The position numbers were made by a program, and so were the translations under genes. A DNA stretch of 64,000 nucleotides from Clostridiales bacterium (GTDB lineage: Bacteria > Bacillota > Clostridia > Lachnospirales > Lachnospiraceae): NCBI GenBank assembly GCA_020860715.1, contig JAJBTU010000006.1, positions 1 through 64,000 on the forward strand. The letters run 5' to 3'. Shown here in pieces: positions 7-44,652 of the stretch (positions are counted from its first letter, which is position 1; each line of letters starts with the position of its first letter). Below the pieces are notes generated by a model. That model was not told the DNA's origin. It did no database searches and saw only the letters and a program-made list of their open reading frames with translations.

Positions 7-33
7 GAGCCTCTTTTTTTCGGCTCATTTTTT
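7..33 (+). terminator. Rho-independent terminator at the left edge
   Basis: A GAGCC/GGCTC stem (7-11 and 22-26) is followed on the plus strand by A and a run of six T. In the minus direction there is no T-run, so it best fits the end of a plus-strand gene lying left of the window. It may still slow minus-strand transcripts leaving the permease gene at 91. Confidence 0.5.
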
Positions 34-90
34 CATAAGCTACTTGACACTACCAAAGAAAAATTTGGATTTGTTTGCGGCTTCGTCTCC

Positions 91-41325: not shown

Positions 41326-43452
41326 TCAGTACGGGCGGCCGGCAAACACCGCCACAGAGCGCGGCGCCATAACAAACATTCCGCTGATGCGGTGTTCCTC
41401 GTATTCACCGTAGTAATATCTTCCGGACTCGTCTCCCGCAGTATTTACACTTAAGTACCACGCGCCGCCGTGCGGGATCTGCGGAAGGCCGATCTTTATC
41501 TCTTCCCAATAAGAATTTACCGCAATGTAGACCAGATCGTCGCGTCCCTTTTCCCGGTCATATCCGGCAAAACTGACGCCAATCATGCGGGCATTCGGCG
41601 GCAGCTCCGTGATCTCCGGATTCACATCATGCATACGCAGCGCCGGCATCCCGCAGACCGCGTCCGGCAGGCGCTTCTGTATGATCCTGTGGCGTTTCCG
41701 GTAATGGATCATAAATTTGAAAAAGTCAAAAATATCCTTATTTTTTTCAATATAACTCCAGTCCAGCCAGGAGATTTCATTGTCCTGGCAGTAGCCGTTG
41801 TTATTTCCAAACTGTGTGTTGCCGAACTCATCTCCGGCATAGAACATCGGCGTACCCCGGCTGCACATCAGCACCGTACAGGCGTTGCGGATCATCTTGC
41901 GGCGCAGGCGGTTCACCTCCGGGTCATCGGTTTCGCCCTCCGCTCCGCAGTTCCAGCTGCGGTTGTCATTCGCGCCGTCCGTATTGTTCCAGCCGTTCGC
42001 CTCATTATGCTTTTCATTGTAAGAATAAAGGTCATACAGTGTAAATCCGTCATGACAGGTCAGAAAATTAATGCAGGAATTGTATCCGACATAATTACCG
42101 TCTCCGTCTCCGTCCGCTCCTCCATAGAGATCGCCGGATCCCGCAAGGGACCAGGCTGCGGTCCCGGATACCCAGTTGTCTCCCTTTAAGTAGGAACGCA
42201 TCACATCACGGTAACGACCGTTCCATTCCGCCCACCGGCGGCTTGCCGGAAACTTTCCGACCTGATACATGCCGCCCGCATCCCAGGCCTCCGCGATCAG
42301 CTTCACATTGCTCAAAACCGGGTCATAGGCCAGGGAGCGTAAAAGCGGCGGGTTATTCAAAGGCGTGCCGTCTTCATGGCGTCCTAATATACTGGCCAGA
42401 TCGAAGCGAAACCCGTCCACCCGGTAATAGATGGTCCAGTAACGCAGGCAGTCCACAATCATCTGCTGAACGATCGGGTGATTGCAGTTCAGTGTATTGC
42501 CGCAGCCGCTGAAATTGTAGTAATTGCCGTCCGGCGTGAGCATATAGTAAACGCGGTTGTCAAACCCTTTGAAGCTGAACGTTGGTCCAAGTTCATTGCC
42601 TTCTGCCGTGTGGTTAAATACCACGTCCAGGATGACTTCAATATCATTTTTATGCAGTTCACGAATCAGGTTCTTCAGCTCGCCGCTGACTCTGTGCGTC
42701 GCCGCGTTTGCCGCATAGCTGGAATTCGGCGAATAAAAACAGACCGGATTGTATCCCCAGTAGTCCAGAAGCATACGTCCGTCTACCTCACGCATGTCCC
42801 GTGTCTCATCAAACTCAAAGATCGGCATCAATTCCACTGCATTGATTCCCAGTTCTTTTAAATACGGAATCTTTTCCCGCAGGCCGTCAAATGTTCCCGG
42901 ATGCTTTACACCGGAAGACGGATGCTGTGTAAAGCCGCGCACATGAAGTTCATAAATAATCAGGTCGCTCAGTTCTTTCTTAGACTGCGGCATTGCACCC
43001 CAGTCAAACGAATCTTTCATCACACGGGCATGATAGCCATCGTTCTTCTTCATACCCCAGTGCCGCTGTCCGGCCACATCACGTGCGTACGGATCCAGCA
43101 GCACGGCGCTGCGGTCAAAAATAAGGCCCTTTTCCGGATCATAGGGGCCGTCCACCCTGTACGCATACTCAAATTTATCGATGTCCAGCCCAAAGACAAT
43201 CATTGCGTAGACGTCGCCGATCTTATACTCCTGCGGGAACGGAATCACCGCATACGGTTCTTCCTCGCCATTGTAATACAGCAAAAGTTCACAGGATGTT
43301 CCTTCTTTGGTGTGCACTGTAAAATTCACGCCGGAGTCAAGCGCCATTGCGCCGTTCATATCAAAATAGCCAGGTCTTACCTGAAACCCGTTGATCTCAC
43401 GCATGGGGCGGATCGACAGAGGATAGTCAATTTTAAAATTCAGTTGATTCAT
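41326..43452 (-). CDS. glgX: Glycogen debranching enzyme (GlgX-type, GH13)
   Basis: Hydrolyses alpha-1,6 branch points of glycogen or similar glucans in the cytosol. It is 708 aa, with an N-terminal CBM48-like domain (about 30-150) and a GH13 barrel. By motif, the nucleophile is Asp351 in GFRFDLASILGR, the acid Glu388 in LIAEAWDAGG, and the third acid Asp468 in FLTCHDGFTLYDL. The open frame extends to 43626, but that part overlaps the SASP gene; MNQLNFKIDYPL behind AGGAGAG is the real start. It follows the SASP gene by about 55 nt. Confidence 0.93.
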   Translation of the reverse strand: MNQLNFKIDYPLSIRPMREINGFQVRPGYFDMNGAMALDSGVNFTVHTKEGTSCELLLYYNGEEEPYAVIPFPQEYKIGDVYAMIVFGLDIDKFEYAYRVDGPYDPEKGLIFDRSAVLLDPYARDVAGQRHWGMKKNDGYHARVMKDSFDWGAMPQSKKELSDLIIYELHVRGFTQHPSSGVKHPGTFDGLREKIPYLKELGINAVELMPIFEFDETRDMREVDGRMLLDYWGYNPVCFYSPNSSYAANAATHRVSGELKNLIRELHKNDIEVILDVVFNHTAEGNELGPTFSFKGFDNRVYYMLTPDGNYYNFSGCGNTLNCNHPIVQQMIVDCLRYWTIYYRVDGFRFDLASILGRHEDGTPLNNPPLLRSLAYDPVLSNVKLIAEAWDAGGMYQVGKFPASRRWAEWNGRYRDVMRSYLKGDNWVSGTAAWSLAGSGDLYGGADGDGDGNYVGYNSCINFLTCHDGFTLYDLYSYNEKHNEANGWNNTDGANDNRSWNCGAEGETDDPEVNRLRRKMIRNACTVLMCSRGTPMFYAGDEFGNTQFGNNNGYCQDNEISWLDWSYIEKNKDIFDFFKFMIHYRKRHRIIQKRLPDAVCGMPALRMHDVNPEITELPPNARMIGVSFAGYDREKGRDDLVYIAVNSYWEEIKIGLPQIPHGGAWYLSVNTAGDESGRYYYGEYEEHRISGMFVMAPRSVAVFAGRPY

Positions 43453-43508
43453 ATAGTTCGTCTCTCCTGTATTGCTGCTGTAAACTCTAGCAGATTTGCC
43501 TCTAAAAG

Positions 43509-43730
43509 TCAAACGGTTCCGGAAGGGCCGGAGACGGCAGTATTCTGATTTTCTGCCATGTACCGTTTCTTCTTTGTCATAAGACCGCCGATGCGGCCAG
43601 TCTCTTTCGCGGACAGGGACTTCCATCCCAGCGTTTTTACCTTCTCCAGAAGCCCCAGTTCTTCCGCAATCTCATATTTCAGCTTATCGTCCGGGCTGAG
43701 TTCGCTCCAATTGATTTTCTTTTCAGACAT
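43509..43730 (-). CDS. Small acid-soluble spore protein, alpha/beta type
   Basis: A 73-aa DNA-binding spore protein. The germination-protease site region reads KYEIAEELGLLEKV, and the second conserved block reads SAKETGRIGGLMTKKKR. Alpha/beta SASPs coat forespore DNA and are made under sigma-G. It lies between trpA and glgX, on the same strand. Its ribosome binding site is inside a 13-bp hairpin. The N-terminus (MSEKKINWSELSPDDKLKYE) resembles the shorter clostridial members. Confidence 0.9.
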   Translation of the reverse strand: MSEKKINWSELSPDDKLKYEIAEELGLLEKVKTLGWKSLSAKETGRIGGLMTKKKRYMAENQNTAVSGPSGTV

Positions 43731-43733
43731 AAA

Positions 43734-43767
43734 CAGGTCATACTCCTTTCATCTGGAGTATGACCTG
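43734..43767 (-). promoter_or_regulatory. Hairpin that covers the SASP ribosome binding site
   Basis: A perfect 13-bp stem (43755-43767 with 43734-43746), with an 8-nt loop. On the minus strand the 3' arm holds GGAG, the only good ribosome binding sequence before the SASP start codon. After the stem only TTT follows, so it is a poor terminator. A transcript arriving from trpA would fold it and hide the site. Confidence 0.75.
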
Positions 43768-43784
43768 CCAGCGGTAAATTATTC
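43756..43784 (-). promoter_or_regulatory. Probable sigma-G promoter of the SASP gene
   Basis: On the minus strand GAATA (43780-43784), 17 nt, then CATACTC (43756-43762). The consensus is GHATR-N17/18-CATWHTA; only the last base differs. The -10 lies in the 5' arm of the hairpin, so transcription would start in the loop and the mRNA would lack that arm. Confidence 0.65.
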
Positions 43785-43794
43785 ACCTGTTTCT

Positions 43795-44652
43795 TTATAA
43801 ATCCCGGATTGCGTCCTTCATGCTCTTTACGTACTCCGCGACCTTCGGCACACAGTCCGCGCCGTATTCTTTACAGATTTTTACGATCGCGGATCCAACA
43901 ATGACGCCGTCCGCGTTCTTCGCCATCTTTGCGGCCTGTTCCGGCGTGGAAATACCAAACCCGATCGCGCAGGGAATGTCAGAAGCAGAGCGCACCAGAC
44001 GCACCATTTCTCCAATATCCGTCGTGATCTCACTGCGGACGCCGGTCACGCCAAGTGAAGAAACACAATAGATAAAGCCCTCCGCTGCCGCCGCAATCTC
44101 AGTAATGCGCGCGTGGTTGGAAACGGCACCCGCTGTGTCCGCAGCATCTGCCTGCCTGCCGCTCCCATCATAATTCGCCAAGCGAAGGGGGGCAGCTGAA
44201 GTCGGCGCGATCAGAGAGATCAAAGCCAGTCCGTTTTTGCGGCATGCACCCGCAAATTCTTCTTTTTCCTCAAATGGGACGTCGGGAAGAATGATGCCGT
44301 CCATCCCAATCTCCGCCGCAGTCTTTGTAAAACGCTCGATGCCGTAGGAAAAAACCACGTTCGCGTAGGTCATAAACACCATCGGGATCTGTGTGTTTGC
44401 GCGGATTTTTTTTACCATATCAAAAATCTTGTCCGTCGTCACGCCGCCCGAAAGAGCGCGGTCGTTGGCCTCCTGAATGACCGGTCCTTCTGCGGTCGGG
44501 TCGGAAAACGGAATGCCAAGCTCAATCAGATCTGCTCCGGCCTGCTCCATCGCATAGACCAGCTGCTCCGTCGTCTCCAGCGACGGGTCACCGCAGGTTA
44601 TAAAAGGAATAAACGCTTTTCCATGCGCGAACGCATCCTGTATCTTACTCAT
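43795..44652 (-). CDS. trpA: Tryptophan synthase alpha chain
   Basis: Releases indole from indole-3-glycerol phosphate; indole passes to TrpB. It is 285 aa with a TIM barrel. Catalytic Glu is in [21 protein letters not shown], the Asp in [15 protein letters not shown], and the phosphate-binding loops are [10 protein letters not shown] and VIVGSAIV. An unusual insert of about 25 residues ([18 protein letters not shown]) lies after the LIAPTS loop. The ATG at 44652 follows GGGGAGG and overlaps the trpB end by 8 nt. Last biosynthetic gene of the operon. Confidence 0.97.

Follow-up and report, generated by a model that had tools for sequence, protein, structure and literature searches.

In transcripts that enter the mobile element Tn10/IS10 from outside, the start of the transposase gene is hidden by a stem, which is not formed in transcripts made from the element's own promoter. 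For gene e, I-TevI and segB of phage T4 and for mobE of phage Aeh1, long transcripts coming from upstream are described as folding into a stem over the Shine-Dalgarno (SD) sequence, and the short transcript of a nearby late promoter as lacking enough of this structure, so that it is translated (PMC3014915, PMC2988022). A 100-fold reduction is cited there for gene e (PMC3014915, PMC2988022), and in related phages the DNA encoding the 5' strand of the stem also contains the late promoter (PMC3014915). For sigG (spoIIIG) of B. subtilis, a hairpin of 20+ bp is put forward as a translational block in read-through RNA. It cannot form in the RNA made from sigG's own promoter, and the sigG RNA is itself described as carrying a second, small hairpin at the ribosome binding site (PMC5942855).

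In the 64,000-nucleotide stretch of Lachnospiraceae DNA that was analyzed here (the window), a gene for a spore protein (SASP) carries a hairpin comparable to these cases. An earlier note on this DNA had likened it to T4 gene e, which is apt from the description of that gene (PMC3014915), and sigG of B. subtilis, as described, is a closer case within sporulation (PMC5942855). As in T4 gene e and I-TevI, a stem would hide the SD in the long RNA and the RNA of the gene's own promoter would be without the 5' arm, as read here from the sequence. The T4 and Aeh1 genes use phage late promoters, whereas a cellular spore gene and a sporulation sigma factor are concerned here, and unlike the phage cases the SASP device is spread through a bacterial family. 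Tn10/IS10 differs in being a mobile element without a developmental sigma factor. The likeness to B. subtilis sigG, drawn from its description, lies in the position of a forespore gene behind a co-directional operon, but the gene here encodes SASP and not a sigma factor. By title and abstract, no such hairpin on a SASP gene was reported in the limited literature set searched. The logic is already known; what stands out here is that it is conserved, that it operates in a sporulation setting and that the -10 element serves two purposes.

Table 1. Coordinates of the features of the SASP locus within the window
Feature	Position	Strand	Basis and remarks
trpA	43795..44652	-	PF00290, 287 bits on 43795-44649; co-directional, upstream of SASP gene
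-35 element TGAATA	43780..43785	-	Promoter scan and pattern match
-10 element CATACTC	43756..43762	-	Promoter scan and pattern match; within 5' arm
Hairpin 5' arm CAGGTCATACTCC	43755..43767	-	Inverted repeat search
Hairpin loop, 8 nt	43747..43754	-	Inverted repeat search and sequence
Hairpin 3' arm GGAGTATGACCTG	43734..43746	-	Repeat search and fold; holds SD core GGAG
Shine-Dalgarno AAAGGAG	43743..43749	-	Spans loop end and 3' arm
SASP gene, 73 aa, alpha/beta type	43509..43730	-	Open reading frame; PF00269

The features of the locus are collected in Table 1. The SASP gene follows trpA, as had been stated, with 64 nt between the trpA end and the SASP start codon (43730-43728), and trpA is a possible source of read-through mRNA. 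The SASP protein matched PF00269 with 39.3 bits (cut-off 22) over residues 15-61, and no NCBIfam match was obtained for it at E up to 0.001. It contains YEIAEE, located by eye, which may be a germination-protease site of the E-I/F-A type. Only one inverted repeat was detected in 43690-43860, with 13-nt arms that are 100% complementary and 8 nt apart, which bears out the perfect 13-bp stem claimed over the ribosome binding site. The minus-strand RNA of 43700-43800 folded at -31.6 kcal/mol, compared with -15.38 (sd 2.48) for 200 shuffles, giving a z of -6.54 with 0/200 shuffles as good; the SD is thus placed in a stable helix, with GGAG located 12 nt from the start codon. A search of 43300-44300 against Rfam 15 gave 0 covariance-model matches at E up to 1.

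The -35 and -10 elements, separated by a 17-nt spacer (TGAATA-17-CATACTC), fit the sigma-G promoter in sequence and spacing with a score of 15.0, obtained with a matrix that we set ourselves on the consensus. The sigma-G-type promoter with its -10 in the 5' arm was accordingly found where the earlier note had put it. Since the -10 lies within this arm, the transcript predicted from the sequence is without it; with the start placed ~7 nt after the -10, sigma-G transcription is assumed to begin near 43749, at the loop end, and the whole 5' arm would be left out. For C. difficile, sigma-F and sigma-G motifs are described as overlapping (PMC7438776).

We propose, with a probability of roughly three in four, that the hairpin serves as an insulator of the forespore SASP gene against read-through. 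An mRNA entering from the upstream co-directional gene, which is trpA here, would carry both arms, so that the hairpin would fold, the SD would be hidden and no SASP would be made. In the forespore, RNA polymerase with sigma-G, and perhaps with sigma-F too, would start in the loop because the -10 itself is part of the 5' arm. Its mRNA could then never hold this arm, the SD would be free and SASP would be made. Within this proposal we infer the read-through, the start site, the strength of the repression and the sigma dependence.

Direct observation covers the sequence anatomy, its conservation, the co-variation of the arms and the co-directional genes upstream of the hairpin loci. The SASP protein was found in 108/144 genomes, the window's own included. 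From the first search 106 loci were used, with weak matches (E above 1e-5), including weak second matches, left out. A second search, of a named collection, supplied the best 80 of 358 candidates, whose titles were mostly Lachnospiraceae or undetermined Clostridiales/Clostridia and included Parablautia, Candidatus Choladousia, Diplocloster and Lactonifactor. The 188 loci were reduced to 141 distinct ones, as many were the same contigs, and 32 of these 141 were dropped before the pairing count for a weak promoter (19), no SD (11), distance (1) or no promoter (1), so that 109 were scored. In at least one of the dropped loci, L157, which is also the site of L047, a hairpin can be seen. In the pairing test, the promoter score fixed the position of the -10 and only the SD that of the 3' arm, and the pairs were then counted. 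The pairing counts use this anchored test; a helix search for unbroken stems misses bulged cases.

The pairing between the -10 and the SD was kept in 76/109 scorable distinct loci with a criterion of 9 of 12 pairs. When at least 9 of 11 pairs were demanded, 73/109 loci were counted in register, and 0, 0, 0, 0, 2 and 0 of 109 when the arms were slid by -3, -2, -1, +1, +2 and +3. The promoter spacer measured 17 nt in 61 of the 76 hairpin loci and 18 nt in the other 15. Among the 106 first-search loci, the hairpin was present in 44/45 from the genus. In other genera of the family, 7/19 loci had it, 8 lacked it and 4 were unscored; in other families of the order the count was 0/41, made up of 20 loci that lack it and 21 unscored ones. 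The remaining locus is an unscored second copy. The earlier note had suggested checking whether the overlap of hairpin and promoter is kept in related genomes, and the outcome is clearly positive, with arms that also co-vary. It is mainly because of this cross-genome comparison that we regard the window hairpin as beyond chance. By these sequence comparisons, the hairpin appears to be a conserved feature of this SASP gene in many gut Lachnospiraceae. A slightly different selection of 77 loci was used for the G-U/A-C counts, SD opening, neighbour groups and tails; it includes L050, L051 and L074, which fall short of the 9-of-12 criterion of the 76-locus set, and is without L077 and L138, which pass it.

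Several SASP loci were unusual. A second SASP-like copy (L089, G040:C164), located ~3.5 kb from the SASP copy in L012, retains the matching hairpin GGCCATACTCC + GGAGTGTGGCC, but no in-frame start codon was found in its usual position, and from its sequence we take it to be a decayed duplicate. The SD of L048 (G078) is covered by another and longer repeat, AAATACTCTCTCC + GGAGAGAGTATTT, which contains the -10 in a different register; this locus, which was not among the counted 76, may represent such a device that took shape independently. In three Anaerocolumna loci (L152, L155, L168), inspection by eye revealed no recognisable sigma-G promoter at the usual place, and a long repeat, AACAAGGGACTG + CAGTCCCTTGTT, lies between the upstream gene and the SASP start.

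The two arms changed together among the 76 loci. Position 8 was C-G in 43 and T-A in 19, position 9 was G-C in 40 and A-T in 12, and position 11 was A-T in 41, T-A in 10 and C-G in 3. Bases of the -10 itself co-changed with their partners, as CACACT with AGTGTG in L161 and L181 and GATACTC with GGTATC in L148 and L167, and in L151, L163 and L186 GATACT faced an uncompensated G instead of C. When 3' arms were swapped between genomes, 0/2000 trials reached the observed pairing of 0.782 (swapped mean 0.721, maximum 0.748; 90 unique arm pairs); these pairing and covariation statistics ignore the kinship of the sequences. One could ascribe the complementarity to two separately constrained elements, CATACTC of the -10 and GGAGTATG of the SD region, of which it would be a by-product, as both cores are partly fixed by function and the swapped arms still pair at the mean given above. 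However, the pairing reaches spacer bases that are without promoter consensus and co-change at positions 8 and 9, it lies above all 2000 swaps, and pairing was seen in 0/20 loci of other families in which both promoter and SD were scored. We consider a by-product origin hardly credible.

Departures within the arms were G-U in 140 and A-C in 16 cases over the 77 loci, a selection that treats both alike, and G-U in 111 and A-C in 15 over 58 unique arm pairs. Part of this G-U excess could stem from a constraint on the SD or from T being preferred close to the start codon. Opposite the -10 bases, a 3' change giving a wobble was found at position 5 in 22/77 cells, and one giving a mismatch at positions 4 and 6 in 6/154 cells. 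The strand-specific pattern of 140 to 16, an arm spacing with a range of 8-113 nt (median 19 for the 76 hairpin loci) and the tie of the 3' arm to the SD all speak against reading the repeat as a palindromic DNA operator, at which a regulator would control the SASP promoter, rather than as an RNA device. Such an operator is very improbable, even though inverted repeats are common operators and this one overlaps the promoter.

As the loop is never shorter than 8 nt, the assumed start lies within the loop in every one of the 76 loci. Inspection by eye found small palindromes of the GCGCCCAT...ATGGGCGC type between the arms of L002-L004, L009, L010 and L013, which are perhaps a repeat element inserted in the loop; in these loci the loop content varied while the arms were held. 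The median distance from SD to start codon was 12 nt in hairpin loci and 8 in others, and the longer distance gives room for the 3' arm. The computed SD opening over the 77 loci had a median of 0.001 in the long RNA versus 0.532 in the sigma-G RNA, and was <0.2 in 72/77 long forms and 1/77 short forms (one short form was uncomputed). The medians for the other 32 loci were 0.271 (long) and 0.658 (short), and 14/32 of these non-hairpin loci also had a long-form opening of <0.2. At the window locus, the opening was 0.00 in the long RNA and only 0.39 in the sigma-G RNA.

The upstream neighbours were placed with our own simple coding-score gene caller. A co-directional upstream gene was called in 73/74 hairpin loci with a call, and two more loci were without a call. 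The exception (L183) has a PspC gene that was missed by the caller (PF04024, 88.1 bits); with this gene corrected by hand, 74/74 are co-directional. Among the 63 loci that had no counted hairpin, a set that includes the unscored ones, the neighbour was co-directional in 32, divergent in 24 and without a call in 7, and the link between hairpin and orientation is confounded with phylogeny. The 32 co-directional ones indicate that the hairpin is not obligatory for a co-directional neighbour.

The upstream genes of the hairpin loci formed 16 blastp groups. The commonest were DUF4097 and PspC, in groups of 29 and 18 loci (e.g., L184, L140 and L183), which are probably one neighbourhood, and trpA relatives made up a group of 8 loci. 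Other groups gave Pfam matches to SecA, FGGY kinase, Lit, class-III aminotransferase and Epimerase, among others, and one matched UvrD_C plus PDDEXK, a protein which we take to be AddA-like. The hairpin stays with SASP while the upstream gene differs, and is thus a feature of the SASP gene rather than of the trp operon. The trp-operon setting emphasized in the earlier note therefore stands for this locus, where trpA lies upstream, but not for the device as a whole. The same observation disfavours the idea that the stem, lying directly after trpA, stabilises or ends the upstream (trpA) mRNA, with its overlap with the SASP start being incidental. Stems at 3' ends do protect mRNAs, but this one goes with the SASP gene over all 16 upstream-gene groups and shares sequence with the SASP SD and -10 in each of the 76 counted loci, the latter by design of the scoring, so that we give an incidental overlap next to no credence.

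The earlier note had also seen no good terminator between trpA and SASP. A consensus terminator scan of 43400-44000 indeed gave 0 terminators (0.7 expected by chance), but the claim has to be qualified by the hairpin's own tail, which is T-rich and scored -3.16 with a TransTermHP-like formula (cut-off -2.5). In the 6 nt before the start codon, T made up 63% in hairpin loci versus 36% in others, 42/71 scored tails passed the cut-off, and no other terminator was found by a simple scan between the upstream gene and the promoter in 64/72 co-directional hairpin loci. These values would suit a hairpin that is mainly the intrinsic terminator of the upstream unit, its 3' arm and U-tract being at the same time the SASP SD and pre-start region. 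Read-through RNA would then end before or at the start codon, and sigma-G RNA, having no 5' arm, would not be terminated; such termination could also act jointly with hiding of the SD. Yet the standard scan called no terminator at the window locus, 29/71 tails were poor and 6/77 loci were unscorable, and 32/76 loops exceeded 20 nt, a length that is unusual for terminators. Pairing with the A-rich sequence before the 5' arm is another explanation for the T near the start. Hence we think it rather unlikely that termination is the main role.

From its sequence, the hairpin with its T-rich tail may nevertheless terminate transcription in some lineages, in addition to the insulation by SD hiding that we favour. 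A tentative extension, to which we give a minority of our confidence, is that the insulator is double-acting, so that one hairpin terminates and translationally locks any transcript entering from outside. The 5' arm would then be the sigma-G -10, and the 3' arm with its tail would be the SD and the pre-start region.

The state of the sporulation genes in the window genome (G000) adds a complication. Its sigG is divided into two parts, one on contig C4 and one on contig C20. The first part is located at ~61423 of C4 (L240:3115-3447), where the contig then runs into other genes, and the second at ~2915 of C20 (L241:1327-3413), directly after a 490-aa large serine recombinase with the domains PF00239, PF07508 and PF13408. 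The ends beside the two sigG junctions are near-perfect inverted copies, with GTTCC common to both, as judged by eye. Apparently, sigG is split by a recombinase-bearing intervening element of the skin type. All 18/18 genus relatives searched gave one sigG match over nearly the whole model with no stops. Excision that restores a sigma gene is described for sigK (PMC10747680), and in the limited literature set searched, by title and abstract, cases were found for sigK, spsM, gerE and yabG and none of an intervening element in sigG. The sigE gene of the window genome (C4, L240:2130-2862) occupies three frames with breaks at two A-runs, which may be real decay or sequencing errors, and one open sigE frame was present in nine relatives. 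Both spoIVA and spo0A were present with no stops.

The window strain may no longer be able to sporulate, or excision may restore its sigG. Since sigG is split, the strain may not use the SASP promoter now unless the inserted element is excised. The earlier reading is supported overall, as the anatomy holds and the overlap is kept in relatives, with the correction that the sporulation transcript may not be made in this genome unless such excision occurs. The SASP gene, its promoter and its hairpin are intact in the window genome despite the split sigG.

Searches for the arrangement elsewhere in this genome, and for a parallel at sigG in the genus, were negative. The genome has two PF00269 matches, and the other locus (L107) has an open reading frame in the opposite direction upstream and, by eye, no hairpin covering the SD. 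The pattern ATACT-8..38-GGAGTRT gave 7 matches in the genome, in which this palindromic locus counts on both strands, versus 17 in a reversed control, so there is no excess of the pattern. Among fifteen GNATA/CATACT matches, this locus included, no other was seen by eye with a -10 partner covering an SD. Two candidates with plausible genes and a promoter match (L203 and L208) were rejected as further copies, as their folds were not convincing. In the sigG leaders of the genus, inspected by eye and unscored, no comparable large SD hairpin was seen.

If the hairpin insulates the SASP gene as proposed, it would bring a logic best established in phages to cellular development as a conserved, co-varying device, and would suggest how a gene for a DNA-coating spore protein can immediately follow vegetative genes like trpA and secA. 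If the tentative double-acting version were true as well, the SASP gene could sit behind almost any vegetative Lachnospiraceae gene, with the forespore promoter escaping by its start in the loop. The proposed insulation further predicts transcripts that cover SASP without yielding the protein, so that SASP expression in these gut bacteria would be misjudged from RNA-seq alone.
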